Source: Opitutaceae bacterium TAV5 (lineage in GTDB: Bacteria; Verrucomicrobiota; Verrucomicrobiia; Opitutales; Opitutaceae). From it: DNA of 64,000 nt. This document shows, piece after piece, positions 29,107 to 45,347 of the stretch; within the stretch, counting starts at the first letter, position 1; each line of letters starts with the position of its first letter. The notes beneath the pieces are model-generated. The model was not told where the DNA came from and ran no database searches. It saw only the letters and a list, made by a program, of their open reading frames with translations. The position numbers and the translations under genes are program-made. The stretch lies in assembly GCA_000242935.3 (NCBI GenBank), contig CP007053.1, forward strand, positions 4,945,001-5,009,000, read 5' to 3'.

Positions 29107-29796
29107 ATGAATCCCAGTATCAATATACCGGTCGCCTTCCTCATGGGTCAGCCCCCGCTCGAGCTTTTCAAGCACGGCGGTCCGATCATGTGGCCGATCC
29201 TCGTCGTCTCGTTTCTTGCCATTACCGTAGTGGTCGAGCGCACGCTCTTCCTTGTCCGCGAGAACGCCGCCCGTGATCCCGGCATTGCCGGTAAGATTTA
29301 CGAACGCGTGGAAAATCACGATGTCGAGGGCGCTGTCCGTATCGGTCAAAAGAGCCGCGATTTCATCGCCCGCATTCTCGTCTACGCGCTTACCCACAAG
29401 GAGCATTCGCTCGACGACGCCTTCGCCCAGGCTTCCAGCCGCGAACTGAGTCGTTACCAGCAAGGTCTCGCCATCCTCGATACCTGCATCACCGCCGCGC
29501 CGCTGCTCGGCCTGCTCGGCACGGTCACCGGCATGATGAACACCTTCGGCGCGCTCGGCAGCGGCGATATCGCCGCCAGCGCCGGCCAGATCACCGGCGG
29601 CGTCGGCGAGGCCCTCATCGCCACCGCCTCCGGTCTCGTCATCGCCATCGTTGTCCTGTTTCCGTTCAACGTCCTCAACACCCGCATCGAGCAGGCCCGT
29701 CGCGACATCGCCGACGCCGCCAACGCGCTCGAACTGGTCAGCCAGAAATCCGGCGTTCCCAGTCTCACGCTCACCGAAGCCGGCGCCGGCGTCTGA
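29107..29796 (+). CDS. exbB: ExbB/TolQ/MotA-family proton channel subunit
   Basis: 229 residues with three membrane helices: MWPILVVSFLAITVVVE (~28-45), LAILDTCITAAPLLGLLGTV (~120-140) and ATASGLVIAIVVLFPFNVLN (~178-198). GLLGTVTGMMNTFGALG and the preceding ITAAPLLG are the family signature. ExbB pentamers with ExbD use the proton gradient to energise TonB. First gene of an eight-gene plus-strand cluster; an exbD gene follows after 63 bp. Confidence 0.9.
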   Translation: MNPSINIPVAFLMGQPPLELFKHGGPIMWPILVVSFLAITVVVERTLFLVRENAARDPGIAGKIYERVENHDVEGAVRIGQKSRDFIARILVYALTHKEHSLDDAFAQASSRELSRYQQGLAILDTCITAAPLLGLLGTVTGMMNTFGALGSGDIAASAGQITGGVGEALIATASGLVIAIVVLFPFNVLNTRIEQARRDIADAANALELVSQKSGVPSLTLTEAGAGV

Positions 29797-29859
29797 CCTC
29801 CTCTCAAAGCGAGCTTGTTTTCAGCTTTCAGTTTTCAGCCTTTCAGTTTTTTCCGAAAA

Positions 29860-30294
29860 ATGTCCGTCTCCTCCCGCGCCCTTGCCGACGAACCCGTCAG
29901 GAAACGGGCCCGCATCGAGATCATCCCGTTGATCGATGTGATCTTTTTCCTGCTCGCCACCTTCGTCCTCTTCACGCTCTCGCTCAACCAGTCGGGCGGA
30001 CTCGCCGTGCTCCTGCCCGCGACTGCGACCAGCCAGCCGCGCGACGCCTCCGGCGCCGTCACGCTCTCCATCACCGCCGAGGGCACGCTCGCCTGGGACA
30101 AGGACCCCGTCACCCTCGACGAGTTCATCGCCCGCCTCCAGGCCTGGAAACAGGTCGAGCCCGATCCGCGCGTGCTCATCAACGGCGACGAAAACGCCCT
30201 GTTCTCGCAAGTCCGCTACGTCGTCGACGAGGTCCGCAAGGCCGGCATCGGTAAGATCAACATCGAAACCCGTATCCGCCCCGCCGGCAACTGA
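29860..30294 (+). CDS. exbD: ExbD/TolR-family biopolymer transport protein (copy 1)
   Basis: 144 residues from ATG 29860; a start 45 bp upstream would add a low-complexity F-rich stretch encoded by repeated TTTCAGC sequence. One membrane helix carries the functional Asp: IEIIPLIDVIFFLLATFVLF. The periplasmic domain ends VVDEVRKAGIGKINIETRI, normal for ExbD. The DNA over the membrane helix is nearly identical to that of the next gene, marking a tandem duplication. Confidence 0.9.
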   Translation: MSVSSRALADEPVRKRARIEIIPLIDVIFFLLATFVLFTLSLNQSGGLAVLLPATATSQPRDASGAVTLSITAEGTLAWDKDPVTLDEFIARLQAWKQVEPDPRVLINGDENALFSQVRYVVDEVRKAGIGKINIETRIRPAGN

Positions 30295-30319
30295 CCTCCC
30301 GCCCGCCCTCCGCCGCCCT

Positions 30320-30751
30320 ATGTCCGCCTTCACCAGTCCCGCCGCCAGCCCGCGCAAAGCCCGCATCGAGATCATCCCGCTGATCGACGTGATCTTTTTC
30401 CTGCTCGCCACCTTCGTCCTGTTCACCCTTTCGCTGAACAAGATCCAGTCGCTCGCCGTCGATCTCCCGCAGGCCGCGCCGAACACGCCGGCCACGAAAA
30501 ACGACGACGACCTCGTTGTCCTGCAACTTTCCGACGCCGACACCGCTTACTGGAACAAGGAACTTATCTCAGTCAGCGAAATCGCGCCGCGCCTTTTCGA
30601 CTACAAGGCCTCCCGCGCCACGCCGCGCGTCCTCGTCAGCGGTGACGACAGGGCGAGCTACGGCGCCGCCATCCGCGCCCTCGACGAGGTGCGCAAGGCC
30701 GGCATCACCGAAGTCTCCATCGAAACCGCCTGGCGCGCCTCCGGCCGGTGA
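30320..30751 (+). CDS. exbD: ExbD/TolR-family biopolymer transport protein (copy 2)
   Basis: 143 residues, 25 bp after copy 1. The membrane segment ARIEIIPLIDVIFFLLATF is shared word for word with copy 1, including the essential Asp, while the periplasmic domains differ clearly (LQLSDADTAYWNKELISVSE here). Both end with a LDEVRKAGI/VDEVRKAGI helix. ExbD dimerises inside ExbB, so two paralogues could form a heterodimer. Confidence 0.9.
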   Translation: MSAFTSPAASPRKARIEIIPLIDVIFFLLATFVLFTLSLNKIQSLAVDLPQAAPNTPATKNDDDLVVLQLSDADTAYWNKELISVSEIAPRLFDYKASRATPRVLVSGDDRASYGAAIRALDEVRKAGITEVSIETAWRASGR

Positions 30752-30829
30752 AAAACCCGCTCCGGAATCCGCATCACCCGGTAATATCATGACAACTACG
30801 AACCGCCCGCTGACCGTCACCTCGTTCCC

Positions 30830-31525
30830 ATGAAACGCGACCTCCTCGCCGGCGTCCTTGTCGCCACGCTTTCGATCACCGGTCTCGCCTTCAGCGACCG
30901 TCTCCTGCCCTCGGGACCGGAGACGGCCGCACCGGCCGAGGACGACATGCCCACCATCGCCCTCGTCCCTCTCCCGCAACTGGAACCCGAGCCGCCCTCC
31001 CCGGAGGAGTTCGCCTCTCTCTCCGACAACGCCCCCGCGCCCGACATCTCCGACCTCGCCCCGCCGATGCAGGCCGACACGCCCGCCGCCGCGGTCAGCA
31101 CCACCGCCTTCGTCCAGAAACTGCAGCCGCCCCCGCCTCCCGGCCTCGGAAAGCCCGCCGGCGTCATCAGCATACCCAAGGGCAACTTCAGTCGCGGCAG
31201 CGGCGTCGGCAGCGGATTGCAGGGCCTGTTCGACCTCGCCGCTCTCGACCAGAAACCCGTCCCCCGGTTTCTCGCCAAGCCCGCCTATCCCTTCGAAATG
31301 CGCCGCTCCGGCGTCAACGGCGAAGTCCTCGTCGGCTTCATTGTCGATGCCGACGGCAACGTCCGCGATCCCTTTGTCGTCCGCTCCACCAACCCCGCCT
31401 TCGAATCCGAGGCCCTCCGCGCCGCCGCCCGGTGCAAATTCCGCCCCGGTCGCAAGGGCGGCGTCAACGTCAGCACCCGCAACGTGATCCTCCCCTACAG
31501 CTTCACTCTTACCGACAACGCATGA
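30830..31525 (+). CDS. tonB: TonB-family energy transducer
   Basis: 231 residues: an N-terminal membrane helix (LLAGVLVATLSITGLAF), a Pro/Glu-rich periplasm-spanning linker (PLPQLEPEPPSPEEF, QPPPPPGLGKPAG), and a C-terminal TonB domain with YPFEMRRSGVNGEVLVGFIV and FESEALRAAARCKFRPGRK. It transmits ExbBD energy to outer-membrane receptors such as that at 51027-53513. Its TGA overlaps the ATG of the TPR gene (ATGA), indicating coupling. Confidence 0.88.
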   Translation: MKRDLLAGVLVATLSITGLAFSDRLLPSGPETAAPAEDDMPTIALVPLPQLEPEPPSPEEFASLSDNAPAPDISDLAPPMQADTPAAAVSTTAFVQKLQPPPPPGLGKPAGVISIPKGNFSRGSGVGSGLQGLFDLAALDQKPVPRFLAKPAYPFEMRRSGVNGEVLVGFIVDADGNVRDPFVVRSTNPAFESEALRAAARCKFRPGRKGGVNVSTRNVILPYSFTLTDNA

Positions 31526-32904
31526 AAACCTCGACGATCTCCGCCGCCCTCGCCGCGCTGGCCCTCGCGTCCGGTCTCGTCCTGTCTCCGCCGCTCCGGG
31601 CTGCCGCTGCTGCCCCCGCCCCGCCCGCGCCCGAGCTTGCTGAACGCGTCTCCGCCAAACTCGGCGAGTTGCGCACCCTCGCCGACGGGGGCGACTACTC
31701 CGGCGCCCTCGTCCTGGTCGACGGACTCCTTTCCACCGCCGCGCCCGAGAGCTTCGACCTGGCCTTTCTCTCCCAACTCAAGGGCCAGCTCCTGCTCAAC
31801 CTCAATCGCTACGCCTCCGCCATCGCCCCGCTGGAAACTTCGCTGCAACTCGGGGAACGTCATTCATTTTTCGATACTGCCGGCACGCTCAACACGCTCC
31901 TCACCCTCAGCCAGCTCTATTTCCAGGAAGCAGTCGAGACCGCCGACCCTGACATCCGCCATCGTTATTACGGCCTCGCCCACGAGCGCATCCGCCGCTG
32001 GCTCGCGCTCTCTCCCCGGCCCACCGCCGAGGCGCAACTCTACGCCGCCTCCATCCTCTACAGCGACGCCACGCGCGACCCCGCCCGGGCCGACCTCGAA
32101 AAGATCCGCCTCGCCCTCGCCGATGCCGAGGCCAGCCTCCAGTTGCGCGCCCGTCCCGACGAACAGGCCTGGGTGCTCATCGTCGCCGCCCTGCAGCAAC
32201 TCGGAAAAGTTCGCGAATCGGTCGACTTCCTCGAACTGCTCGTGGACCGCAAACCCGACTCCGCCCTTTACTGGCAGCAACTCTTCGCCTCCTGTTCCAG
32301 CCTCGCCTCGGAATCCGCCAACCCCAGGGAAGCCGACCGCTGGCACCTCCGCGCCCTCCTGACCGTCGAACGCGCCCAGCAGCACAGACACCTCTCCGGC
32401 GCGCAGGATCATTTCAACGTCATCTCCCTCCTCACCTCGCTCCGGCAGTACGACCAGGCCGCCGCTCTCCTCGAAAAGGGGCTCGCCGGCGGCACCATCG
32501 AAAACACCCGTCGCAACTGGGAACTCCTCTCCTTTTCCTGGCAGCAGCAGCACGACAACGACCGCGCCATCGACGTGCTGCGCCGCGCCATCCGGGCTCT
32601 GCCCGAGGACAGCGAACTCGAGGTCGCGCTCGCCCGCCTTTACTACGCCCGCGATCAGCCCGCCGAAGCCTGCGAACACCTCCGCAACGCCGTAACCCGC
32701 GGCAAGCTCGAACGCCCCGGCCAGGCCTGGTTCTTCCTTGCCTACGTCGCGTACGAACTCCGCCGCTTCGACGACGCCGCCCGGTGGGCCGAAACCGCCG
32801 CCGCGCAACCCGATGTGCAGAAGGACGACATCACCCGTCTCACCCAGGCCATCCGCGAAGCCCTTCAGGAAGCCGCCGCCGCTCCCGGAAAATCCGCAAC
32901 CTGA
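31522..32904 (+). CDS. Exported TPR-like repeat protein of the TonB cluster
   Basis: 460 residues from ATG 31522, which overlaps the tonB stop by 4 nt. Signal peptide in ALAALALASGLVLSPPLRAAAA. The rest is helical with TPR-like units: LNRYASAIAPLETSLQLGE, LRQYDQAAALLEKGLAGG, NDRAIDVLRRAIRALPEDSE, YARDQPAEACEHLRNAVT. Periplasmic TPR proteins often bridge protein partners; sitting in the TonB operon it probably contacts TonB/ExbD or an outer-membrane receptor. No enzymatic motif. Similar exbB-exbD-exbD-tonB-TPR orders occur in other Verrucomicrobiota and Planctomycetota as far as I recall. Confidence 0.7.
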   Translation: MKTSTISAALAALALASGLVLSPPLRAAAAAPAPPAPELAERVSAKLGELRTLADGGDYSGALVLVDGLLSTAAPESFDLAFLSQLKGQLLLNLNRYASAIAPLETSLQLGERHSFFDTAGTLNTLLTLSQLYFQEAVETADPDIRHRYYGLAHERIRRWLALSPRPTAEAQLYAASILYSDATRDPARADLEKIRLALADAEASLQLRARPDEQAWVLIVAALQQLGKVRESVDFLELLVDRKPDSALYWQQLFASCSSLASESANPREADRWHLRALLTVERAQQHRHLSGAQDHFNVISLLTSLRQYDQAAALLEKGLAGGTIENTRRNWELLSFSWQQQHDNDRAIDVLRRAIRALPEDSELEVALARLYYARDQPAEACEHLRNAVTRGKLERPGQAWFFLAYVAYELRRFDDAARWAETAAAQPDVQKDDITRLTQAIREALQEAAAAPGKSAT

Positions 32905-32935
32905 TCCGTATTCACTCTCCCGCTTCCACATCCCG

Positions 32936-33451
32936 ATGAAAAAAGTCTACCTGATTTTCCCTCTCGCCGCCCTGTTCGCCTTCGGGGCTCTCTACTGGAA
33001 CTTCGACCGCGGCTACGCCGAGCGCGCGCAGGCCGCCCGTCAACAGGCCCGCCTGGAAAAAGAAATCAAACTCAAAGCCGAGGTCGAGGCTCGCGCCAAA
33101 AGCATCGAAGACGCCCTGCGCCTCCAGGCCGAGCGCAGGAAGGCCCGCGAGGAGCGCGAAGCCCGCGAGGCCGCCGAAAAGGAAGCCCGCCAGCTCGCGC
33201 TCGACGCCCGCGAAAAAGCCTTTCGCAACCAGGAACAGCTCGCCCGCCAGATCGAGCGCCTGAAGAAGGACGTCGCCGCCGAACAGGCCGCCGTCGCCGA
33301 AATCGCCGCCGCCCACAAACTCTCCCTCGACGAACAGGCCTTCCTCAAGGAGTACATCGCCAGGGCGGAAGAAAACATCCGCACCCTCGAAACCCTGCTC
33401 AGCGCCATCGCCGCCGCCGAATCGATCGGCGCCCTTCCCGGCGGCGCCTGA
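32936..33451 (+). CDS. Single-span membrane coiled-coil protein, TonB cluster (A)
   Basis: 171 residues from ATG 32936 (MKKVYLIFPLAALFAFGALY). One N-terminal hydrophobic helix is followed by ~120 residues of uninterrupted charged heptad-like helix (ARLEKEIKLKAEVEARAKS, EAREAAEKEARQLALDARE) and a short C-terminal helix (FLKEYIARAEENIRTLETLL). No known domain. The topology, an inner-membrane anchor with a long rod into the periplasm, resembles TolA or a TonB linker. A paralogue follows directly. Confidence 0.6.
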   Translation: MKKVYLIFPLAALFAFGALYWNFDRGYAERAQAARQQARLEKEIKLKAEVEARAKSIEDALRLQAERRKAREEREAREAAEKEARQLALDAREKAFRNQEQLARQIERLKKDVAAEQAAVAEIAAAHKLSLDEQAFLKEYIARAEENIRTLETLLSAIAAAESIGALPGGA

Positions 33452-33549
33452 AAGCGCCACCCCCCTGCCGCGCCGCCAACCGTCCCGCCTTCTGTCACCA
33501 ATTTCAAACTACAAACTACAAACTTCCAATTTCAAAACTTCCATTTCAC

Positions 33550-34104
33550 ATGAACCGTTTCTACCTGATCGCCCCGCTCGTCCTGCTGCTCCTCTTCGGA
33601 GGCGTCTTCTGGCAGCACAACAAGACCGCCGCCATCGAGGCCGCGCAAAAAGCCGCCGAGGTTGCCCGGGCCGACGAAGCCGCACGCGTGCAGAAAGCCG
33701 AGGCGGAGCGCAAGGCCCGCGAAGACGCCGAACAACGCGCCGCCGCCCGCGAGGCCGAAGAGCGCGGGAAAGAGGAAGAGCGCCGCGCCCGGTGGGAGGC
33801 CGACTCCGCCCGCATCGCCGAAGAAACCGCCCGCCATGCCGCGCAGGCTGCGGACTACACCCGCCAGGTTGCAGCCCTCGAAAAACAGCTCGCCGGGCTC
33901 CGCTCCGAAAAGGAAAAGCGCAACCGCGAAGCCTTCGCCGCCGCCCGCGAGGTCGAGTTGCTGGCGATCAGGAAACGCAACACCGAGCTGGAGGTCCAGC
34001 GCGTCACCGGGATCATCGCCCGTCGGGCCACCGGAAGCCGCGCCGTCATCGCCGGTCGCCCGCCTTCACCCTCCCGCGTGGCGTCAGCATCGGACGGCAA
34101 ATGA
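33550..34104 (+). CDS. Single-span membrane coiled-coil protein, TonB cluster (B)
   Basis: 184 residues. The start MNRFYLIAPLVLLLLFGGVFW mirrors protein A (MKKVYLIFPLAALFAFGALYW), as does the following Ala/Glu/Arg/Lys coiled coil (VQKAEAERKAREDAEQRAAA, REAEERGKEEERRAR). The C-terminal ~35 residues (RVTGIIARRATGSRAVIAG) are not coiled coil. Clearly paralogous to the previous gene. The 98-bp gap before it contains short CAAACTACAAACT repeats. Function unknown; a periplasmic rod or scaffold acting with TonB is inference. Confidence 0.6.
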   Translation: MNRFYLIAPLVLLLLFGGVFWQHNKTAAIEAAQKAAEVARADEAARVQKAEAERKAREDAEQRAAAREAEERGKEEERRARWEADSARIAEETARHAAQAADYTRQVAALEKQLAGLRSEKEKRNREAFAAAREVELLAIRKRNTELEVQRVTGIIARRATGSRAVIAGRPPSPSRVASASDGK

Positions 34105-34192: not shown

Positions 34193-35071
34193 ATGAAACC
34201 AGCACCACTCGGAAAACTCCTCGCTCTCCTGTCCGGAGCCCTGCTCGTCGCCGGTCTCGGCCTTCTCGCCACGACCTCCGGCGGCTGCTCGCGCAGCGCC
34301 CCCGCCGACTCCCTCGCCACCATCAAAAAGCGCGACCGGATCATCGTCGGCGTCTTCGGCGACAAGCCGCCCTTCGGCTACATCGACCAGCAGGGGCGCA
34401 ACGCCGGTTACGACGTCGCCCTCGCCCGTCGTCTCGCGCAAGACCTGCTCGGCGACGCCGGCAAGATCGAGTTCGTCACCCTCGAAGCCGCCAACCGCGT
34501 CGCCTTTCTCCTGTCCAACAAAGTGGACCTCATTCTCGCCAACTTCACGCGGACGCCGGAGCGGGCCGAAAGGGTCGATTTTGCGAATCCCTACATGAAA
34601 GTTGCGCTCGGTATCGTTGCTCCTGCCTCCAGCCCGGTCGATTCGCTCGACGCGCTCAAAAGCGCGTCCGGCAAAACGCTCATCGTCAACAAGGGCACCA
34701 CGGCCGAGGCGTTTTTTACAAAAAACCATCCCGGCATCAGACTTCTCAAGTTCGACCAGAACACCGAGGCTTTTCAGGCGCTCAAGGACGGCCGCGGCGA
34801 CGCGCTTGCACACGACAATACCCTGCTCTTCGCATGGGCGCACGAGAACAAGGGCTTCAGGATCATCGAATCCAACCTCGGAAACCAGGACGTGATCGCC
34901 CCCGCCGTGAAGAAAGGAAACCAGGCGCTCCTCGACCGGGTCAACACCGGGATCGACCAGCTCGCCCGCGAACACTTCTTCCTCCGGGCTTTCGACGATG
35001 AGCTGCGTCCTTATTTTGGCGATACGATCAAAAACCCGAACGACGTGATCATCGAAGGAGACGCCCGGTGA
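34193..35071 (+). CDS. Polar amino acid (cystine-type) ABC transporter solute-binding protein
   Basis: 292 residues from ATG 34193. N-terminal signal LLALLSGALLVAGLGLLATT, possibly lipid-modified at the Cys in SGGCSRS although the lipobox is poor. The domain is SBP_bac_3: IIVGVFGDKPPFGYIDQQGR, GYDVALARRLAQDLLG, DLILANFTRTPERAERVDFA, NPYMKVALGIV and IVNKGTTAEAFF, a sequence run most like FliY/TcyA-type cystine binders. Permeases and ATPase of a matching transporter are encoded at 43572-46106, about 8.5 kb downstream. It is placed at the end of the TonB cluster and before the OsmC gene. Confidence 0.8.
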   Translation: MKPAPLGKLLALLSGALLVAGLGLLATTSGGCSRSAPADSLATIKKRDRIIVGVFGDKPPFGYIDQQGRNAGYDVALARRLAQDLLGDAGKIEFVTLEAANRVAFLLSNKVDLILANFTRTPERAERVDFANPYMKVALGIVAPASSPVDSLDALKSASGKTLIVNKGTTAEAFFTKNHPGIRLLKFDQNTEAFQALKDGRGDALAHDNTLLFAWAHENKGFRIIESNLGNQDVIAPAVKKGNQALLDRVNTGIDQLAREHFFLRAFDDELRPYFGDTIKNPNDVIIEGDAR

Positions 35072-35156
35072 CCCGGGGACGCCCTCCCCCCCCGCGCCCG
35101 CTTGCCGGAATAAAACCTGTTTTGTCGTTATTAGTTGAATACTTGACTGGAAACCT

Positions 35157-36410
35157 ATGAAAAACAAAAGCATACGACTCATTATTGCAGCCGGCTTGTC
35201 CGTGGCCGGCTTGCAGGCGTTGATCCTCCCGTCGCTCCACGCGCAGGCGACGCATACCTCCCAGGACTGGGCCCAATCGCCCGCTGCCTACGACGACGGC
35301 CGCTCCCTGAGGGATTATCAGGCGAGTCTGCGCTCGGCGCTTTTCCTGCTCAAGGGGAGCCCCGAACTGGAGCAGCCCCTCAAGCTTTCCGCCCGGGTCA
35401 CGGCGGTCGGTCGCACGGGCATCCGCCGCCTGCGCATCCGCAATTTCCAGATCCTCAGCGACGGCGGCAGGGACGTCGCCGAATTCAACCTCGGAGCCGG
35501 CTCCTGGCCCAGCGTGGTCGGCGCGCTCGGCAGCGCGGTGGCCGGGGACTACCTGACCCAGGCCGCGATCAAGGGCATCCCCATCGATGCGCTGGAAGTG
35601 GTCTTTACCAGCCGTCCCGGCACCGCGCCCTCGCAGAGCACCGGCACCCAGGTGACCTATCCCCGCAATCTGGCCTACACGGCCTTTATCGTCTCGCCTG
35701 CCTCGGACGCCGAACTCGAGGACTTGCGGCAGACAGTCGAGCGCGTTTCCCCGGTCCTCCGCCTGGTCAGCGAGTCCCAAAATATCGACCACGGCAAATT
35801 GATCCATACCCCGACGCCCGACAAGCCCGAGGCCAGGACACTCGACGGCCTGCGTGAATTCCTGGCCGACAAGTACGCCGCCACGCAAGGCGCGGTTCCC
35901 TTCGAAGGGCGGAGACCGGCCCGTGACTCCGAGGACTGGAGACCGCCCCTGCGTGCCCATGTCAAGGTCGAAGGTGACACCGGCATCCGGCACATTCGCA
36001 CGGACATCAGCAATTTCCAGGTCATCCACGATTATCCGCGCTATCTGGCGGGGCACAACCTCGGCCCGGTGCCCGAGGAGCATATCCTCGGGACGATGAT
36101 CACCTGCCTCACCCATATCTATGAAATCGTGGCCGCGCAGAAGCAGGTGCGCCTGGACTCCCTGGAACTGGAAGTCGAAGGCACGCTGACCACCCGCCTC
36201 GGCAATACCGAAAATCCTCCCGCCTACAAGGACATCGCCTACCGCGCACACATCGGCTCGCCCGAGTCGAAGGAGGTCATCGAGCAGCTTCAGCGCGACG
36301 TCGAGGCGATCTGCCCCATCTACAATATGCTGAAAGACTCCCAGCCGGTGAAAGGCAGCATCGTCCGCGGCCCCTACACCGAGGAAAAAGAAAAAGCCGC
36401 GTACGAATAA
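35157..36410 (+). CDS. Exported protein with two tandem OsmC-like domains
   Basis: 417 residues. The N-terminus LIIAAGLSVAGLQALILPSL then HAQATHTS reads as a cleavable signal peptide. Two OsmC-like domains follow (about 60-205 and 230-400). The second has the two redox cysteines of OsmC/Ohr peroxidases: Cys317 in ILGTMITCLTHIYEI and Cys386 in VEAICPIYNMLKDSQPV. In the first copy the aligned positions are Ala (VVGALGSAVAGDYL) and Ser (VERVSPVLRLV), so it cannot use the same chemistry. OsmC proteins reduce organic hydroperoxides in the cytoplasm; an exported double OsmC is unusual. Neighbours are sulfur or amino acid uptake genes. Confidence 0.8.
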   Translation: MKNKSIRLIIAAGLSVAGLQALILPSLHAQATHTSQDWAQSPAAYDDGRSLRDYQASLRSALFLLKGSPELEQPLKLSARVTAVGRTGIRRLRIRNFQILSDGGRDVAEFNLGAGSWPSVVGALGSAVAGDYLTQAAIKGIPIDALEVVFTSRPGTAPSQSTGTQVTYPRNLAYTAFIVSPASDAELEDLRQTVERVSPVLRLVSESQNIDHGKLIHTPTPDKPEARTLDGLREFLADKYAATQGAVPFEGRRPARDSEDWRPPLRAHVKVEGDTGIRHIRTDISNFQVIHDYPRYLAGHNLGPVPEEHILGTMITCLTHIYEIVAAQKQVRLDSLELEVEGTLTTRLGNTENPPAYKDIAYRAHIGSPESKEVIEQLQRDVEAICPIYNMLKDSQPVKGSIVRGPYTEEKEKAAYE

Positions 36411-36456
36411 GGGCGCGTCCTTTTTCCCGCCTCGCGCCCCGGCATGATCGAAAAAT

Positions 36457-36505
36457 GTCCCCATCGTCAAAGTGACGACACCGGCATCGGCCACCGGATG
36501 GGGAC
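36457..36505 (+). other. candidate structured RNA (three-way junction) upstream of NitT/TauT operon
   Basis: GTCCCCAT (36457-36464) pairs with ATGGGGAC (36498-36505). Inside, CGTCA/TGACG (36465-36469/36473-36477) and CCGG/CCGG (36481-36484/36494-36497) form two further stems, giving a compact three-way junction. The rest of the 338-bp gap holds a tiny 17-codon frame (36610-36663) and a CCCGC/GCGGG hairpin near 36700. Whether it is transcribed is unknown; it could also be the end structure of the OsmC transcript. Confidence 0.35.
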
Positions 36506-36748
36506 CGATACAGCCTGCATGTATTCCATTTTCTAACACGGACTATCAGGCGGGATTCAAAGGAGACCGGCACGGAGGCCCTATCTTGATTTTATAGACC
36601 AACATTCTCATGAATCCGGCCGAACCAAGGCCGCGTACCAGCAAGCGCCAAAGGTTTTTCTGACCAGGCAACTGGAAGCTCCACCGCTCCCGAACCGTCT
36701 GACCCGCCGCCACTGCGGGAGGATCGTTTCATCCAGGAAAATTCACCG

Positions 36749-37696
36749 ATGAAAAGAATCATGCCACCCTCCCGCCTGTTCGCCACAGCCATTCTGGCCA
36801 GTCTCTCCCTTGCGACAGCGCTCTGCGCCACTGCCCGGACCAAAATCGTCGTCGCCGACGCCAAGACCACTCATCATCTCAATCTCTACATTGCCAAGGA
36901 ACTCGGCTATTTCGAAAAGCGAGGCCTCGATGTGAGCATCATCGACACCAAGGATCTCACGGCCGCGCGGGATCTGCTTGTATCCGGAAAGGCAGACTTC
37001 TTCTGGGCCTGCCCCACCGCCGCCATTGCCGCCATCGCCAATGGCGCGCCGATCAAGATCGTCTCCCAGGTCAAGAAGCCCTGCACCTCCGTTCTCGTCG
37101 CCTCGCCCGATTCTCCAATCACCAGGCTGGAAGACCTGAAAGGCAAACGCATCGCCGGCATCTCCCCCACCTGCGAAGCCGTGATCTCGATCACCGTTGC
37201 GGCCAAAAAAGCCGGCGGGGAATTCACGCTCGAAAAACTCGCCGGCGGTCCCGCCATCGCCGCCCTCGATGCCAAAGCCGTGGATGCCGCCATCCTCGAA
37301 GAACCGCAGGTCAGCATCGCCGAGCTCAAAGGCTACAAGGTGCTCTTCCCGGCCATCTCCGAAAACATTCCCTGCCGCACCATCAATGTCCGCAACGCCT
37401 TCCTGAAAAACAACACCGAAGCCTCGAAGCAGTTCATCGAAGCCGTCGAAGAAGCAAATACCTTCATCCTCAAGGATCCGGCTTCCGGCCAGGTCGTCGC
37501 CATCGCCGAAAAATACACCGGGGCTCCGGCCAGCGCGATCAGGCACGGCAACCATCGTCTCAAGTTTCAGACTACGGTGGACGAAGCCGGCCTGAGCGCC
37601 CTTGCCGACGAACTGATCGCCCTCGGCGACATCCGCGAAAATCCCGGCAGCCGTCTCTACGCCGAGGAGTTCCGCGGCATCACCTGGGGAAAGTAA
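36749..37696 (+). CDS. NitT/TauT-family ABC transporter substrate-binding protein (1)
   Basis: 315 residues. Signal peptide LFATAILASLSLATALCATA. NMT1/SsuA-type domain: HHLNLYIAKELGYFEKRGLD, VSGKADFFWACPTAAIAAIA, LEDLKGKRIAGISP, DAAILEEPQVSIAEL. Family ligands include taurine, alkanesulfonates, nitrate and thiamine precursors. A second binding protein, a permease and an ATPase follow with short gaps. Presence of cysteine synthase 3 kb downstream favours a sulfur compound, by inference. Confidence 0.82.
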   Translation: MKRIMPPSRLFATAILASLSLATALCATARTKIVVADAKTTHHLNLYIAKELGYFEKRGLDVSIIDTKDLTAARDLLVSGKADFFWACPTAAIAAIANGAPIKIVSQVKKPCTSVLVASPDSPITRLEDLKGKRIAGISPTCEAVISITVAAKKAGGEFTLEKLAGGPAIAALDAKAVDAAILEEPQVSIAELKGYKVLFPAISENIPCRTINVRNAFLKNNTEASKQFIEAVEEANTFILKDPASGQVVAIAEKYTGAPASAIRHGNHRLKFQTTVDEAGLSALADELIALGDIRENPGSRLYAEEFRGITWGK

Positions 37697-37706
37697 ACCC
37701 GACACC

Positions 37707-38591
37707 ATGCGGATTCCCGACATCTTCCGTCTTCTCCTCGTCCCGGCGCTTTCCGTCCTTCCGGACTTGTCGGGTGCCGTCGCGACCCCGGCGCTCGCGG
37801 TCGGGCACACCGGGAATCCGCTGCTCGCCCCGCTCTACGCCACCGCCGACCGGGCGGAGGAAAACGGACTCGCCCTCGCCCTGCGCCGTTTCGGCACGGG
37901 AGGCGATGTCGGGTACGCCCTGCTCGCCGGCGAAATCGACGCCGGTTTCGTTGAACCGGACAGGGCGCTCGCCCTGCTGCGCCTGCCCGAAGCCGCTCGC
38001 CTGCAGCCGGCCGGCGTCATGAATTTTCCCTACGGAGCCACGCTCGTCCTGCGCAAGAATCTCGACAAACGCCTCGACGAGCTCGGCGACGCCCGGATCG
38101 CGGCGGCCGGCCCGCATTGCGCGCTGCTCCACCGCTTCCGGACCGACGCCGGCCGGCTCGGGGCCGATCTCTCGAACCACCGGCTCCGTTTCATGCCCTT
38201 CGATGCCATGCTCCCGGCGCTCGAATCGCGCACCGTCGACGCCATCCTCGTCAAGGGCGCGTATGCGGGGCTCGCCGTCCGGCAGGGGCACACGATCCTT
38301 TACCAGAACTGGGACGTGCAGGCCGGCGATGCCTGCTGCCCGGCCATCGTTTCGCAGGCGGAATACATCCTCGTCGTGCGCGCCGACGCCGAAAAACGGA
38401 CCGCTGCGCTGGTGAACGCGCTTGCGGCGGCCGACCGGCTGCCTCCTGCCGACCTGCGCCGCGCGACGGCCCGCCACCTCGCCTGGGACGGGGCGGCGCT
38501 GGACGAGCTGCCGCTCGCCTCCTTCGTCCCGCTGACCGCCGACCTGCGCAAGGAGCTTGGCCTGCCCGGCGGGGAGGACACCGCGCCTTGA
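37707..38591 (+). CDS. NitT/TauT-type substrate-binding protein (2), divergent
   Basis: 294 residues, 10 bp after the first binding protein gene. N-terminal signal LLLVPALSVLPDLSGAVATP. The fold can be traced by GHTGNPLLAPLYATADRAEE, LLAGEIDAGFVEPDRALALL and VDAILVKGAYAGLAVRQGH, but the sequence is far from protein 1. Two cysteines in AGDACCPAIVSQ are notable. Two different binding proteins for one permease suggest two related substrates. Its stop (TGA 38589-38591) overlaps the TTG start of the permease gene. Confidence 0.7.
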   Translation: MRIPDIFRLLLVPALSVLPDLSGAVATPALAVGHTGNPLLAPLYATADRAEENGLALALRRFGTGGDVGYALLAGEIDAGFVEPDRALALLRLPEAARLQPAGVMNFPYGATLVLRKNLDKRLDELGDARIAAAGPHCALLHRFRTDAGRLGADLSNHRLRFMPFDAMLPALESRTVDAILVKGAYAGLAVRQGHTILYQNWDVQAGDACCPAIVSQAEYILVVRADAEKRTAALVNALAAADRLPPADLRRATARHLAWDGAALDELPLASFVPLTADLRKELGLPGGEDTAP

Positions 38592-39430
38592 GCCGTTCCA
38601 CCTCTCCCCTCGATGCCGGCACCCGCGGCTGGCGACGCGCGGCGCAGGACACCGGCTCGTTCCTGAAAACCGCCTTCGGCAGCCTCGTCACCATCGAGTT
38701 TCTGACCCTCTTCATTCCCATCCTCGTGCTCTGGGAAGTGTTGCCGCGCACGGGCGTGCTGCCCGCCACCCTCGTGCCGCCGCCCAGCCGGGTGGCCGGG
38801 GCGTTCCACGACCTGTTTGTGCACAAGAATCTGGCCGGCCACATCGGCATCAGCCTGCTGCGCTTCGGCCTCGGGCTGGGGCTGGCGCTCGTCACCGCCT
38901 TCCCCATCGGCGTGCTCATGGGGTGGAACATCTTCGTCCGCAAGCACGCGCTGCCCCTGTTCCAGATTCTCGCTCCCGTGCCGCCGCCCGCCTGGGTGCC
39001 GCTCACCATCGTCGCGCTCGGCGTCGGCCTGCCGATGCAGACGTTCCTGATCTTTCTCGGCGCGTTTTACCCGATCCTGTTCAACACGTATCAGGGAGTC
39101 AAGGACACCGATCCCCGCTACCTCGCCTCGGCCCGGGTCTTCGGCGCGAGCGAGTTCACCCTCATCCGCAAGGTCTATATCTGGCATGCGCTCGGCTCCG
39201 TCATCATGGGCATCAAGATCGGCATCTCCCTCGGCCTGGTCATGCTCGTCATCGCCGAGATGCACGGCGGCAACTCGGGCATCGGCTACCTGCTGGTCGA
39301 GTCCAAGGAGTATTTCCGGATCGACCGCATGGTCGTGGCCATGGTTCTCCTCGGGGCCATCGGCTGGTTCCTCATCGAGGTGATGAAATTCATCGAGGCG
39401 AAACTCGCGCTCTGGCGCGCCGGCCGCTGA
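38588..39430 (+). CDS. NitT/TauT-family ABC transporter permease
   Basis: 280 residues from the TTG at 38588, which overlaps the previous stop (TTGA) and has GGGGAGGA about 10 nt upstream; no ATG fits as well. Six membrane helices, with the BPD_transp_1 EAA-type loop around ARVFGASEFTLIRKVYIWHA followed by LGSVIMGIKIGISLGLVMLV. Start region LVTIEFLTLFIPILVLWEVL is the first helix. It forms the channel for binding proteins 1 and 2, energised by the ATPase 14 bp downstream. Confidence 0.83.
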   Translation: MSRSTSPLDAGTRGWRRAAQDTGSFLKTAFGSLVTIEFLTLFIPILVLWEVLPRTGVLPATLVPPPSRVAGAFHDLFVHKNLAGHIGISLLRFGLGLGLALVTAFPIGVLMGWNIFVRKHALPLFQILAPVPPPAWVPLTIVALGVGLPMQTFLIFLGAFYPILFNTYQGVKDTDPRYLASARVFGASEFTLIRKVYIWHALGSVIMGIKIGISLGLVMLVIAEMHGGNSGIGYLLVESKEYFRIDRMVVAMVLLGAIGWFLIEVMKFIEAKLALWRAGR

Positions 39431-39444
39431 CCCCCCCTCCGCCC

Positions 39445-40317
39445 ATGATCGAAGCCCGCCGCATCACCCGATTTTTCTCCGTCGTGAAGGACGATGGCAC
39501 CGCCGAGGGCGCCACGGCCGTGCTCTCCGTGTCATTAAAAATAAACGACGGCGCCTTCGTGGCCCTCGTCGGCCCGACGGGCTGCGGCAAGTCCACCTTT
39601 CTCGAAATCCTCGCCGGCCTCCAGGCTCCGACCGAGGGCGAGGTTCTGATCGACGGCCGCCTCGTGCTCGAACCGCTGCCCGCCACCCGCCGCGAGATGG
39701 ACGCCTACCGGAAAAAATACCGCTTCGTCTCGCCGCTGGCCAACGGCCTCTTCCGCGACAGGCCCAAGCACGACATCGCCATGATCTTCCAGGACTACGC
39801 GGTGTTTCCCTGGATGACGGCCCGGGAAAACGTGCTCTTCACGCTCAAACTTCGTGGCACGCCTCGCGCCGACCGCGAGGGACTCGCCCGCAAATATCTC
39901 GATCAGGTCGGCCTGCGCGGCTCCGGACACAAATACCCCGCGCAACTCTCCGGCGGCATGCGCCAGCGCCTCGCCATCGCCCGCGCCCTCTCCGTCGAGC
40001 CGAAGATCATCCTCATGGACGAGCCCTTCGCCGCCGTCGATGCGCTCACCCGCGAACGCCTGCAGGAGATGCTGCTCGAAATCTGGCGCACCACCGGCAC
40101 CACGATGGTGCTCGTCACCCACGATTTCGACGAGGCCGTTTATCTGGCCGACGAAGTCATCGTCTTTTCGCCCCTGCCGGGCACGATCCGCAACCGCGTG
40201 CCCGTCGACCTCCCGCGCCCGCGCCACCGCGACGACCCCGCGCTGCGCGTCTACAAGGAACGCATCGTGCGCATGTACCACTACGACACCGTCCACGCCG
40301 CCGATTACTCGATCTGA
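39445..40317 (+). CDS. NitT/TauT-family ABC transporter ATP-binding protein
   Basis: 290 residues from ATG 39445. Walker [11 protein letters not shown]-loop FQDYAVFPW, signature LSGGMRQR, Walker B ILMDEPFA followed by AVDALTR, His switch LVTHDFDEA; all as in SsuB/TauB. A ~25-residue insertion ([19 protein letters not shown]) lies between Walker A and the Q-loop, longer than usual. Last component of the transporter, followed by cysteine synthase after 79 bp. Confidence 0.87.
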
Positions 40318-40396
40318 ACCGGAGGCGGAAAACCGGATATCCGTCACCTGTCACCTGCCCGAACGCATCATTTGCCGAAAATTCCACCTCCCGCTC

Positions 40397-41380
40397 ATGC
40401 CCGTGCCAGCCACCGACTCTCTCGTCATCCCTCCCGTCTTTTCCCGCGGGCGCATCCATGAAGACATTACGGAAGCCATCGGGGGCACGCCGCTCGTGCG
40501 CCTGCGACGCCTCCCCCCGGCCGGCGGCGCGGAGATCGTCGCCAAGGTCGAGGGGATCAATCCGCTCGGCAGCGTGAAGGACCGCATCGGCGCCGCCATG
40601 ATCACCGCCGCCGAGCGCGACGGCCAACTGCAACCCGGCGGCACCGTGATCGAACCCACCTCGGGCAACACCGGCATCGGCTTGGCCTTTGCCTGCGCCG
40701 CGCGCGGCTACCGGCTCATCCTCACCATGCCCGAGAGCATGTCGATCGAACGACGCAAACTCGTGCAGATGCTCGGCGCCGAACTCGTCCTCACGCCCGC
40801 CGACAAGGGCATGGCCGGCTCCGTGGACAAGGCGCGCGAACTGCACCGCCGCATCAAGGGCAGCTTTCTGCCCATGCAATTCGAAAACCCGGCCAACCCC
40901 CAGGCTCACCGCGAGACGACCGCCGGGGAAATCTGGGCCGACACGGCCGGCCGCGTGGACCTCTTCGTGGCGGGCGTGGGCACGGGCGGCACGATCACCG
41001 GCGTCGCCGAGGTGCTCAAGGCCCGCAAACCCTCCGTGCGCGCTATCGCCGTCGAGCCCGAGGCCTCGCCCGTGCTCTCCGGTGGGCGGGCCGGGCCGCA
41101 CCGCATTCAGGGCATCGGCGCGGGCTTCGTGCCCCCGGTGCTCAACCGCAAAATCGTCGATGAAGTCATCGCCGTGCGCAACGAGGACGCCTTCGCCACC
41201 GCGCAGCGCGTGGGGCTGGAGGAAGGCATCCTGTGCGGCATCTCCGGCGGCGCAGCCGTGTGGGCGGCGCTGCAACTCGCCGGGCGTCCGGAAAACGCGG
41301 GCAAACTCATTGTCGTCATCCTGCCCGATTCCGGTGAACGCTATCTCACGACCCAGCTCGCCGACGTGTCGCGCGAATGA
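40397..41380 (+). CDS. cysK: Cysteine synthase A (O-acetylserine sulfhydrylase)
   Basis: 327 residues from ATG 40397. PLP lysine Lys61 in [11 protein letters not shown]; substrate loop [11 protein letters not shown] at residues 87-97; PLP-phosphate loop [12 protein letters not shown]-terminal [12 protein letters not shown] and [12 protein letters not shown]. These are the complete CysK signatures. It makes cysteine from O-acetylserine and sulfide. Placement after a TauT-type transporter fits sulfur assimilation. A second, altered homologue is at 61245-62372. Confidence 0.92.
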
Positions 41381-41392
41381 CGCCTTCCCGCC

Positions 41393-41857
41393 ATGCCGCT
41401 GATCACTGAACGAGTCGCCGCCGCCCGCGCGGGCGCAAACCCGAACGTGCTCGGCCGGATGCGTTCCGGCTGGGCCGTCATCGGAGACGTGCAGTTTCTC
41501 CCCGGCTATTGCCTGCTCCTGCCCGACCCCGTCGTGCCCGGCCTCAACGACCTGACGGAGGAGGGCCGGGTTCAGTTCCTTTCCGACATGGCGCGGATCG
41601 GCGACGCCTTGCTGGAGGTGACGAACGCCTGGCGGATCAACTACGAGATCCTCGGCAACTCGGAACCCGAACTGCACGCGCACATTTTCCCGCGCTACGC
41701 GGACGAGCCGGAAGAAAAGCGCCGCATGCCCGTCTGGTTTTACGACTGGAAAAACGCTCCCCGGTTTTCTCCGGAACAGCACGCCGATCTGTATTCCCGG
41801 CTGCGCGACGCCTTGAAAAGGGATGCGGCCGCCTCCGCTGCTGACTCGCAAAAATGA
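41393..41857 (+). CDS. HIT-like domain protein
   Basis: 154 residues. SGWAVIGDVQFLPGYCLLLP and LHAHIFPRY place it in the HIT superfamily of nucleotide hydrolases and transferases. The histidine triad HxHxH is incomplete here: H-A-H-I-F, with Phe at the third position, while the catalytic middle His is kept. Activity on dinucleoside polyphosphates is possible. It begins 12 bp after cysK, and its stop overlaps the next start by 4 nt (ATGA), so the three genes are probably coupled. Confidence 0.75.
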   Translation: MPLITERVAAARAGANPNVLGRMRSGWAVIGDVQFLPGYCLLLPDPVVPGLNDLTEEGRVQFLSDMARIGDALLEVTNAWRINYEILGNSEPELHAHIFPRYADEPEEKRRMPVWFYDWKNAPRFSPEQHADLYSRLRDALKRDAAASAADSQK

Positions 41858-42300
41858 AAATCCGCCGCGCCACCTATGAAGACCTTCCGGACCTCCTCCG
41901 GCTTTACGGTTTCCTGCAATCGGACGATCCGGTCCCGGATTTTCGGGATGCCGCCGTTCACCGCCACTGGGAGGCGATTCTGCGCGACCCGCGTCTTTTG
42001 TATTTCGTAGCGGAAGCGGAAGGGAAAGTCGCGTCCACCTGCACGCTCACGCTGATCCCCAACCTCAACCGGGCGATGCGTCCCTACGGGCTCATCGAGA
42101 ACGTCGTGACCGATCCGGATTTTCGCCAGCAGGGGCTTGCGACGGGCGTTCTCCATGCCGCGCTTGCGCAGGCATGGCGGGAAGGGTGTTACAAGGTGAT
42201 GCTCCTGACCGGCAGCAAAAAGGCGGAAACCCTGCGATTCTATGAAAAGGCCGGCTTCCTGCGCGGCATCAAGACGGGGTTCATTGCCTATCCCGAATGA
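41854..42300 (+). CDS. GNAT-family N-acetyltransferase
   Basis: 148 residues. MKIRRATYEDLPDLLRLY is a standard GNAT start; IENVVTDPDFRQQGLATGVL carries the acetyl-CoA motif A (here R-Q-Q-G-L-A), and LRFYEKAGFLRG is motif B. Substrate unknown. It overlaps the HIT gene and ends the cysK unit; a 74-bp gap follows. Confidence 0.85.
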   Translation: MKIRRATYEDLPDLLRLYGFLQSDDPVPDFRDAAVHRHWEAILRDPRLLYFVAEAEGKVASTCTLTLIPNLNRAMRPYGLIENVVTDPDFRQQGLATGVLHAALAQAWREGCYKVMLLTGSKKAETLRFYEKAGFLRGIKTGFIAYPE

Positions 42301-42374
42301 TCCGTCGAACTTTTCCATGCTCGATTTGCCGTCTGTCTGCTCCTAATAACCTCCTTTTCATTTAACAGCGCGCC

Positions 42375-42947
42375 ATGCCCAGACCCGCCGCCAACCCACC
42401 CGCCGCCACCGTTTTCCCGCGCGCTTCCCGTTCTCCGGCCCCGCCCCGTCGGGCCAGCCTTGCCGCCGACATCCGCCAGCTCATCGACGCCGCACGCGGC
42501 CAGGTCGCCGCAGCCGTCAATGCCAGCCTCACCACACTCTACTGGCAAATCGGCGCGCGCATCCAGGTTGACGTTCTCAAGAAAAAACGCGCCGGCTACG
42601 GCGAGGAGGTCATCACCACCCTCTCCAGGGAACTTGAGCAGGACTACGGACGCGGCTTCGGCGAAAAAAACCTCCGCCACATGCTGCGTTTCGCGGAGGC
42701 ATTCCCCGACGAGCGAATTGTCTCCGCACTGCGGAGACAATTGACCTGGTCCCCCATCAAGTCGGTCATCTATATCGACGATTCGCTCAAACGCGATTTC
42801 TATGCCGAGATGTGCCGCATCGAGCGCTGGAGCACGCGGATGCTTCGCCCGCCGGGCGAAACGTCCGCGGAAGCAGGCATGATCCGGTTCGTGAAGCCCG
42901 GTCCAACCCGAACTCCGGCCGCGGACACCGAAAAAGTGTCCGGTTGA
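42375..42947 (+). pseudogene. Truncated DUF1016 (YhcG-type) gene, N-terminal half only
   Basis: 190 codons. After a Pro-rich start, residues ~28-140 match the DUF1016 N-terminal domain: LIDAARGQVAAAVNASLTTL, YWQIGARIQ, YGEEVITTLSRELEQDYGRG and FGEKNLRHMLRFAEAFPDE. The next expected block is also recognisable (LTWSPIKSVIYIDDSLKRDF, then CRIERWSTRML). There the homology stops, and ~35 unrelated residues end the frame. Complete YhcG-like proteins are ~340 residues and have a C-terminal PD-(D/E)XK nuclease domain, which is absent. Probably a broken remnant of an accessory or defence gene, though the shortened protein might still be made. Confidence 0.7.
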
Positions 42948-42962
42948 GTCCGGCCGGTCTCC

Positions 42963-43544
42963 ATGTCAAACATCGCCAGAGCACACACTACCACCATGAA
43001 AGATTACCCGTTATCGAAGGTGTTTCAGTTGATCGAGCCGGGGCCGGTCGTGCTGGTGACGACCTCACACAAGGGACGCGCCAATGTCATGACGATGAGC
43101 TGGCACATGGCGATGGAGTTCACGCCGCCGCAGATCGCTTGCGTCATCAGCCCCGGCAACCACAGCTTCGAGGCGGTGCGCAAGACCCGGGAATGCGTGA
43201 TTGCCATCCCCGGAGCCGATCTGGTGCCGCGCGTCGTCGATATCGGCAACTGCTCGGGGCAGGACGTGGACAAGTTCGCCGCCTTCGGCCTCACGCCGAT
43301 GCCCGCCGCAAAAGTGACCGCGCCGCTGGTGGCTGAATGCCTCGCCAACATCGAATGCCGCGTGGTGGATACCCGCCTGGTCAACAAATACGCCCTCTTC
43401 ATCCTCGAGGCGGTCAAGGCATGGACCAATCCGCAACGCAAGGACCGCCGGCGGTTTCACGCCAACGGCGACGGCACCTTCGCCGTCGATGGCCGCACCC
43501 TCGATCTCCGGAAAAAAATGGTGAAATGGCAGGACACCCTGTGA
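42963..43544 (+). CDS. Flavin reductase-like FMN-binding split-barrel protein
   Basis: 193 residues from ATG 42963; an ATG at 42996 (MKDYPLSKVFQL) is an equally good start and would remove 11 residues. Motifs are LIEPGPVVLVTTSHKGRANV, MTMSWHMAMEFTPPQIACVI and NKYALFILEAVKAW, as in the flavin reductase-like domain family. These proteins supply reduced FMN or act as FMN oxidoreductases; in sulfur loci a reductase of this type can serve a sulfonate monooxygenase, but no monooxygenase gene is seen here. Confidence 0.8.
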   Translation: MSNIARAHTTTMKDYPLSKVFQLIEPGPVVLVTTSHKGRANVMTMSWHMAMEFTPPQIACVISPGNHSFEAVRKTRECVIAIPGADLVPRVVDIGNCSGQDVDKFAAFGLTPMPAAKVTAPLVAECLANIECRVVDTRLVNKYALFILEAVKAWTNPQRKDRRRFHANGDGTFAVDGRTLDLRKKMVKWQDTL

Positions 43545-43571
43545 CCCGTTCCGGGGCTCTTTTCCCTGTCG

Positions 43572-44240: not shown

Positions 44241-44350
44241 TTTTACACTACGAAAACCCGGCGCGGCGCAGCCAGAACCCAACCATTGAACAGAAGCGCG
44301 GGAATCCGGAATGGCCGGGGAATGAGGGGAAGAAAATTATGATTAATCAT

Positions 44351-44511
44351 TTTGAACAGAAGATAAGAAGGTCACGAAGGCGCTCCAGCACCCGCAACCC
44401 GTCCGGCATCCGAAACCCGTTTCTTCCCCATCCAGAACAAAAACGTCTCTTTCGTCCAATCACCTTCCGTCTGCCTGCGGGCCTTCGTTATTTTATTAAC
44501 TTCTGTTCAAA
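44351..44511. repeat. imperfect inverted repeat between the two permease genes
   Basis: TTTGAACAGAAG (44351-44362) matches the complement of CTTCTGTTCAAA (44500-44511), and ACGAAGG (44374-44380) matches CCTTCGT (44482-44488). The left arm carries AAGATAAGAAGGTCACGAAGG, similar in style to the CGCGAAG repeats. Non-coding; probably inserted between formerly adjacent genes. Confidence 0.5.
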
Positions 44512-44571
44512 CTTCTGAATCCGAAAATGAGAGAAATCATACATCAACAGGGCATCGCCCCACCTTCGGAA

Positions 44572-44642: not shown

Positions 44643-44666
44643 ACGGAAGCATAAGCCTCGATTCGC

Positions 44667-45326: not shown

Positions 45327-45347
45327 CCAAACCCGCGCTCGCCACGC

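Follow-up and report, generated by a model that had tools for sequence, protein, structure and literature searches.

Extended TonB systems and the TAV5 locus

TonB motors are textbook three-part machines, and some bacteria possess larger versions, in which extra parts (TtpB, TtpD) are essential but unexplained. TtpC, a further part of the TonB2 systems, is presumably ExbB-like. TolA of the Tol-Pal system combines a membrane anchor with a long charged helix. According to PMC6957404, the TonB2 system of Vibrio consists of TtpB2, TtpC2, ExbB2, ExbD2, TonB2 and TtpD2, all six of which are reported to be essential for siderophore uptake; TtpB2, a DUF3450 protein that is first in the operon, carries a leucine-zipper motif, and the TPR protein TtpD2 (425 aa) comes last, after tonB. 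The gene order is also named in PMC10734418.

The window analysed here, a stretch of 64,000 nucleotides from Opitutaceae bacterium TAV5, holds the series exbB-exbD1-exbD2-tonB-TPR-rod1-rod2 at 29107-34104, all on the + strand and where the first-pass annotation had placed it, with the ATGA overlap of tonB and the TPR gene present at 31522-31525 as described (Table 1). The start of exbD1 was set at the ATG at 29860, with an alternative TTG at 29815.

Table 1. Genes of the seven-gene module and neighbouring genes in the window (positions within the window)
Feature	Position	Strand	Product	Support
exbB	29107-29796	+	229 aa, proton-channel subunit	MotA_ExbB PF01618 E 4.6e-28 (Pfam); orthologues in relatives' loci
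exbD1	29860-30294	+	144 aa	ExbD PF02472 E 2.4e-26 (Pfam)
exbD2	30320-30751	+	143 aa	ExbD PF02472 E 3.3e-24 (Pfam)
tonB	30830-31525	+	231 aa	TonB_C PF03544 E 2.2e-13 (Pfam)
TPR protein	31522-32904	+	460 aa	several TPR models (Pfam)
rod1 (CC1)	32936-33451	+	171 aa	N-terminal membrane helix running on into one long helix
rod2 (CC2)	33550-34104	+	184 aa	paralogue of rod1
cystine-type binding protein	34193-35071	+		
OsmC-like	35157-36410	+		
sulfonate-type binding protein	36749-37696	+		
ABC ATPase	~39535-40317	+		
PLP enzyme like CysK	~40403-41380	+		
flavin reductase	42963-43544	+		
two permeases	43572-44240 and 44667-45326	+		
ATPase	45348-46106	+		
TonB-dependent receptor	50985-53513	+		PF00593 E 3.1e-51, PF07715

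As in the Vibrio TonB2 system, so far as the sources describe it, a TPR gene follows tonB here; homology of this TPR protein rests on the DUF3450 operons of the phylum, and its likeness to Vibrio TtpD is one of description. TtpB2 opens the described Vibrio operon, whereas the rods stand at the 3' end and are unrelated to DUF3450; and where that system has TtpC2 as an additional protein, the present module has one ExbB, two ExbD and two membrane-anchored rods. The PVC vWA clusters, as presented in PMC12204202, share with it a TPR gene, one TolQ-like protein, two differing TolR-like proteins and a membrane-tethered periplasmic protein, but employ a vWA-domain transducer in place of TonB_C and domain-free rods. 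None of the seven proteins gave a vWA match at E 0.1. The DUF3450/TonB operons of the phylum itself have a homologous TPR gene in the same place and, unlike the module, contain DUF3450 and a long ExbB and lack rods. The second, long ExbB-like protein is absent from the window module, the 229-aa ExbB being the only one.

Conservation of the module and its relation to DUF3450

The gene order recurs in relatives and is far beyond chance. All seven genes stand in order at 70 of the 80 loci picked by exbD1, and both rods are present in 66 of the 67 such loci with enough sequence behind the TPR gene; nine of the ten loci short of the full module are cut by a contig end. The exception, L127, is genuinely devoid of rods and speaks against our main reading, given that the motor, tonB and the TPR gene are retained and ribosomal protein genes occupy the place of the rods. 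Loci picked by the TPR gene, with 80 regions fetched from a longer list of TPR matches, hold all seven genes in order in 72 of 81 cases, and eight of the other nine are cut by a contig end. The TonB-linked TPR matches score at least 77 bits; the two other TPR matches in the fetched loci reach at most 22 bits. Scattered coiled-coil genes were not found: all 72 rod-profile matches, which occur in 34 of the 387 genomes of the phylum, adjoin this TPR gene.

The TAV5 genome carries four such modules at different sites with the order kept in all, and the seven genes are thus duplicated together. Four of its five TonB_C matches are located inside these modules, and a TBDT Plug match lies no more than 18 kb from each module (7e-5 under random placement, with the distance chosen post hoc). 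The genes for ribosomal protein L20 and phenylalanyl-tRNA synthetase are divergent neighbours of the module at about 23 of the 81 loci.

DUF3450 (PF11932) gave no match in TAV5 at E 1e-5. Among 21 rod genomes, 5 had it above the cut-off and three further ones below, versus 12 of 12 (above the cut-off) among genomes without rods, a split with a Fisher value of 2e-5, a statistic that ignores ancestry. These 12 were chosen by hand; a later search with the rod1 profile (E 0.01) to check their lack of rods returned one partial match of 23.6 bits (a 643-aa frame in G185) and none in the other 11. Operons of the type DUF3450-long ExbB-ExbB-ExbD(-ExbD)-TonB-TPR were found at five loci (L202-L205 and L121), four of them in the window's own family. 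Rods and DUF3450 are mostly not together in the examined genomes, which points to a shared mechanical need, although the distribution may be plain ancestry. The small size of the rods makes the idea of a shared need testable.

Architecture of the rods, the motor and the TPR protein

That the rods are paralogues, as first proposed, is borne out by profile-profile comparison (probability 99.5%, E 1.5e-22 over 151 columns), and the absence of a recognised domain likewise stands, all Pfam and NCBIfam matches being sub-cut-off. Their description as one helix plus a coiled coil of about 120 residues holds in part. The AF2 model of rod1 is indeed one helix of 162 residues (4-165 of 171, mean pLDDT 91.4), but the heptads are clear only in the outer part. 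In the family profiles the period of 3.5 is clear at residues 91-160 of both rods (0.001 of shuffles for rod1, 0.011 for rod2) and at residues 61-130 of rod2 (0.002), where the rod1 peak falls at 3.64 (0.002 at 3.67). No 3.5 period is seen in rod1 (0.725) or rod2 (0.309) over residues 26-95, a stretch with much Glu, Lys, Arg and Ala. Compared with the flank past the membrane helix, the N-tail is the more positive side in 81% of rod1 sequences, 94% of rod2 sequences (n=78 each) and 68% of TonB sequences. A relationship of the rods with DUF3450 was rejected (profile comparison probability 0.4%).

Covariation between rod1 and rod2 is highest at zero offset and is, as a sequence signal, no more than suggestive of pairing. 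Tighter clusters weaken the signal (5/500, or 33/500 with gaps left out), and the near-diagonal share of the top 200 pairs is not unusual over whole rods (122/500). Control pairs also lean to zero offset (rod2-ExbD1 54/500, rod1-ExbD2 17/500), rod1-TPR attains a z of 3.5 at an arbitrary offset, and ExbD1-ExbD2 was unusable as a positive control with an effective number of 1.1. Gene conversion was discarded as the source, since identity covariation is not peaked at zero; in-register rod1/rod2 identity is 0.120 within a locus versus 0.110 between loci of a cluster.

Homologues of the canonical Ton parts ExbB, ExbD and TonB_C are all in one cluster. ExbD1 and ExbD2 are distinct orthologous groups, separable by score, and the membrane Asp is kept in 73 of 73 aligned ExbD1 (rows with a letter there) and 76 of 76 ExbD2. 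The TPR protein has a signal-peptide-like hydrophobic N-terminus, judged by eye, followed by 21 helices (AF2 mean pLDDT 93.6, pTM 0.83), and is homologous over nearly its full length to the TPR protein of the phylum's DUF3450/ExbB/TonB operons (100%, E 7.9e-46, 371 columns). A special recognisable fold was not retained for it: PDB sequence search and Foldseek returned TPR superhelices of many kinds, with TM by query of 0.24-0.43 among the 50 Foldseek matches listed.

A putative extended Ton machine

We consider that the seven genes probably encode one extended Ton machine, with the rod pair in place of TtpB/TtpC; how its parts touch and what it does is inferred. The first-pass annotation had suggested a TonB complex with extra rods, and its genomic side is supported by the tight synteny, the co-duplication and the lack of solitary rods, while the topology that it compared with TolA or with the linker of TonB amounts to a likeness. 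ExbB and the ExbD1/ExbD2 pair would form the proton-driven motor, and TonB would pass force on to outer-membrane receptors. The rods may be anchored in the membrane through the N-terminal helix, leaving the long helix in the periplasm with a reach of 140 residues x 0.15 nm, about 21 nm; they could pair in parallel via their outer parts. The TPR protein, presumably exported, might sit on the rod pair and guide or dock the linker of TonB near the wall and receptor, so that rods plus TPR protein would do the job of TtpB (DUF3450), TtpC and the TPR protein TtpD in TonB2 systems. In one bacterial family, then, a TPR protein homologous to that of the DUF3450/TonB operons is joined with unrelated membrane-anchored rods, and the module hints at a second way of building TonB motors. 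Only tentatively can this be extended to a two-fold asymmetric motor with a mixed ExbD1/ExbD2 axle, a parallel mixed coiled coil of rod1 and rod2 as a fixed, periplasm-crossing mast beside the moving TonB, and a TPR head; if true, the motor would have arrived independently at what DUF3450/TtpC provide, a rigid stator for outer-membrane pulling.

It is rather unlikely that the rods and TPR protein instead aid assembly or stability of the motor, as an inner-membrane chaperone or spacer whose membrane helices bind ExbB/TonB and whose tails are mere length. Such a role would agree with conservation in the membrane helix (P9 and F16 invariant across 60 rows of rod1; Y5, P9 and F16 kept in 90% or more of the 60 rod2 rows), with the inner rod half devoid of heptads and with L127, which keeps the TPR gene and lost the rods. 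It is at odds with near-invariant residues far out on both rods (E133, F136 and N147 in rod1; R143, E146, Q150 and R151 in rod2) and with the maintained length (medians 178 and 177 aa).

Less probable still is that the rods give this motor a second force-transducer pair, with the wall or a non-receptor outer-membrane partner as target, as TolA does in Tol-Pal. The shared anchor and charged, Ala-rich helix, a sub-cut-off TolA match of rod1 (E 0.046, 12.7 bits versus a cut-off of 213) and the housekeeping site beside the L20 and phenylalanyl-tRNA synthetase genes would fit. However, both rods lack the C-terminal TolA/TonB-fold domain for binding, rod1 being helical to residue 165, and were rejected as TolA; a TonB-like His inside the membrane helix occurs only as scattered cases (2/60 rod1, 1/60 rod2), and the TAV5 modules lie near TonB receptors. 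It should be added that rod2 has a His at the outer end of this helix, position 23, in 30 of 60 rows. Mere co-transcription of rods that belong to another envelope process would suit the rod-less L127, but is very improbable considering that two sets of loci chosen in different ways, and likewise four paralogous modules of one genome, keep the same order, and that solitary copies are absent among the 72 rod matches.

Returning to the extended machine, the window copy has a peculiarity. The TonB membrane-helix histidine is held essential for contact with the motor; the window TonB has Ile16 within this helix. His stands there in 70 of 76 aligned relatives, and in the Geminisphaera colitermitum TAV2 locus L122 as well; the window copy may therefore be weakly coupled or uncoupled. 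The receptor at 50985-53513 is likely its outer-membrane client, as we infer, and a 77% relative lies ~5 kb behind rod2 in G178. This copy, a paralogue, might serve the uptake of sulfur compounds: the sulfur-related stretch at 34193-46106 (+), counted outside the core module, follows it directly, and many of these genes are also found near the module in relatives.

A rod-bearing Ton module and its gene order

The module belongs to Opitutaceae bacterium TAV5 (Verrucomicrobiota, Opitutales, Opitutaceae; genome of 7,417,673 bases in 2 contigs, with the window at C1:4945001-5009000). It is best classed as an extended form of the Ton system that shares kinship with TonB2 through its TPR protein and is provided with rods of its own. 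The seven genes of this Ton cluster, with the TPR gene and the two rod genes among them, lie on a single strand and are spaced by 25-98 bases, except that tonB is coupled to the TPR gene by an ATGA overlap, as described in the first-pass annotation. Domain profile searches assigned the families MotA_ExbB, ExbD (twice), TonB_C and TPR within the module, and gave no family match above cut-off for rod1 and rod2. No description of such rods in a Ton cluster was found in the open-licence papers searched, and the word “coiled” is absent from PMC12204202.

Coordinates of the module and of other features discussed in the text
Feature	Sequence	Position
Seven-gene module, exbB to rod2	window (+)	29107-34104
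tonB	window (+)	30830-31525
TPR protein gene	window (+)	31522-32904
rod1 (171 aa)	window (+)	32936-33451
rod2 (184 aa)	window (+)	33550-34104
rod2 start, with position 23	window (+)	33550-33620
LuxR-type response regulator	window	46106-46750
Hybrid sensor (1384 aa)	window (-)	46722-50876
TonB-dependent receptor	window	50985-53513
Receptor and SbmA/BacA-like ABC transporter	window	50985-55295
Fifth TonB_C match	G000 (TAV5), C1	4401543-4403448
Extra rod2-like piece	L033 (TAV5 module)	11186-11509
Ribosomal genes in place of rods	L127	7224-9143
Three rods	L050	8550-10229
Three rods	L119	7467-9145
exbD2/tonB split over frames	L082	4786-5440
In-frame stop inside tonB	L067	4861-5592

A rod1 match was present in 115/150 Opitutaceae genomes (E 1e-3) and a match to the TPR protein in 119/150 (E 1e-10). 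Gene order was read from two sets of loci. In the first, comprising 80 regions fetched around TPR matches and the window, all seven genes were found in 72 of the 81 loci, with the order kept in 72/72; eight of the nine incomplete loci break off where their contig stops, whereas one (L121) is truly without rods. The second set, independent of TPR and rods, was picked by an ExbD1 alignment against named genomes, with 80 loci kept from at least 538 relatives. The conserved synteny that the annotation had asked for recurred here: among the matches listed, all seven genes stood in order at 70/80 loci, the TPR gene was present in 75/80, nine of the ten incomplete loci ended with a contig, and both rods were found in 66 of the 67 loci with at least 1.4 kb behind the TPR gene. 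The exception is a termite-type Puniceicoccales MAG (L127), in which exbB-exbD1-exbD2-tonB-TPR is kept and genes for ribosomal S10, L3 and L4 replace the rods. Hosts of the complete module include Ereboglobus, Rariglobus, Cephaloticoccus, Lacunisphaera and Opitutus; both Geminisphaera loci are cut behind tonB.

Across the phylum, the rod1 profile matched 34/387 genomes (E 1e-6), 33 of Opitutaceae and one (G020) of another family; more distant rods occur in G105 (different family, same order) and G226. The annotation had counted scattered coiled-coil genes against a joint function. No solitary rods were found in the 387 genomes, each of the 72 rod1-profile matches having a TonB-linked TPR gene no more than 2.6 kb away, with at most nine candidates scored for most genomes, so that weak solitary rods could escape. 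It should be added that two loci (L050 and L119, in G091 and G215) carry three rods per module, namely two rod1-like genes and rod2, and that the broken genes of L067 and L082, both from draft genomes, reflect either decay or faulty assembly.

Relation to TonB2 operons

DUF3450 (PF11932) is the family of TtpB in the Vibrio TonB2 system, in which TtpC is ExbB-like. Of 29 chosen genomes searched with the TPR profile (E 1e-10), seven gave a match, once each and in 7/7 cases inside exbB/exbD/tonB operons. Two of these loci (L206, L207) bear rods; the remaining five (L202-L205 and L121, 4/5 from Opitutaceae) follow the order DUF3450, long ExbB, short ExbB, ExbD (one or two), TonB, TPR. This is the order published for Vibrio TonB2, in which TtpB2 is a DUF3450 protein, TtpD2 belongs to the TPR proteins and none of the six components is dispensable (PMC6957404; gene order also in PMC10734418).

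Profile-profile comparison revealed the TPR proteins of rod modules and DUF3450 operons as homologous over 371 columns (100%, E 7.9e-46), and two other TPR matches in the fetched loci reached at most 22 bits vs at least 77 for the TonB-linked ones. DUF3450 was above cut-off in 12/12 genomes chosen as rod-free (3-8 matches each) vs 5/21 rod genomes (Fisher 2e-5, ancestry ignored), with three more rod genomes below cut-off and no match in TAV5 (E 1e-5). The rod-free status of the twelve was borne out by a later check, save for a 23.6-bit partial match in G185. Identity of the rods themselves with DUF3450 was ruled out (probability 0.4%).

Rod architecture and a proposed mechanism

Rod1 and rod2 are paralogues of each other, separated by their profiles at nearly every locus; both start with a membrane helix in which Y5, P9 and F16 are conserved (60-row alignment each). 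AlphaFold2 predicted rod1 as a single unbroken helix over residues 4-165 (mean pLDDT 91.4), and at a helix rise of 0.15 nm per residue the ~140 residues past the membrane would extend ~21 nm. The periodicity peaked at 3.48-3.50 in residues 91-160 (0.001 and 0.011 of shuffles for rod1 and rod2, respectively); in residues 61-130 the peak was at 3.50 for rod2 (0.002 of shuffles) and at 3.64 for rod1, and the test gave no 3.5 signal in residues 26-95. As this period is clear outward and missing inward, the outer part resembles a coiled coil, and the inner part is a charged helix. In 81% of rod1, 94% of rod2 and 68% of TonB proteins (78 each) the N-tail carries more positive charge than does the flank past the membrane, which fits a periplasmic placement of the rods. 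Histidine occupies rod2 position 23, at the outer end of the membrane helix, in 30/60 rod2 proteins.

We propose that a motor with a mixed ExbD1/ExbD2 pair would act together with periplasmic rods, that rod1 would pair with rod2 under the TPR protein as head of the pair, and that TonB would thereby be guided to its receptor. Residue covariation hints at the rod1-rod2 pairing: it peaks at zero offset (rank 2/121, best eight offsets within 4), at a level reached in 0/500 within-cluster permutations and in 5/500 with tighter clusters, the gap-free values being 1/500 (coarse clusters) and 33/500 (tight clusters). The near-diagonal share of the top 200 pairs was unremarkable (122/500), rod2-ExbD1 and rod1-ExbD2 also tended to zero offset (54/500 and 17/500), and rod1-TPR covariation reached z 3.5 at an arbitrary offset.

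Paralogues in TAV5 and the window copy

The TAV5 genome holds 16 ExbB-type and five TonB_C matches, and the module genes were duplicated together, 4/5 TonB_C matches lying inside rod modules; the fifth is outside them, 1.4 kb from an ExbB. There are 18 Plug matches, 17 above cut-off, and each of the four modules has one of its own within 18 kb (0.6, 2.6, 13 and 17 kb). When matches were placed at random, 7/100,000 trials reproduced this for the distance, which was chosen post hoc. One TAV5 module (L033) contains an extra rod2-like piece (120 bits), perhaps a remnant, ~1.2 kb past its rod2. In ~23/81 loci the module stands divergent beside the ribosomal L20 and phenylalanyl-tRNA synthetase genes, a site that suggests an old, general copy with other paralogues as later specialists. 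The window module would be one of these specialists.

The window TonB has Ile at the position of the membrane histidine (His in 70/76 relatives, Ile in 4, Glu in 2), its helix reading LSITG vs LxHxG in relatives, including Geminisphaera colitermitum TAV2 (L122), where TonB keeps the histidine and ExbD1 is 95% identical to that of the window. This histidine is described as essential to motor interactions in PMC12204202. Judging from its absence, the window copy may have weak coupling or be in the course of being lost, irrespective of the situation in the family.

Behind the window module lie genes for a cystine-type binding protein, an OsmC-like protein, a sulfonate-type binding protein, a CysK-like enzyme, a flavin reductase and ABC parts, followed past these sulfur genes by the receptor and the SbmA-like transporter. 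In G178, of the same genus, relatives of the latter pair start ~5 kb behind rod2, with sulfonate and CysK genes thereafter; in G241 and G211 cystine-type and OsmC genes are directly behind rod2. Because of these neighbours, the window module would be linked to sulfur, and the receptor and SbmA/BacA-like protein could possibly provide a route by which a sulfur-bearing peptide is taken up. A hybrid sensor (HisKA, HATPase, receiver, Hpt and one propeller repeat match) with an adjoining LuxR-type response regulator separates the sulfur genes from the receptor.
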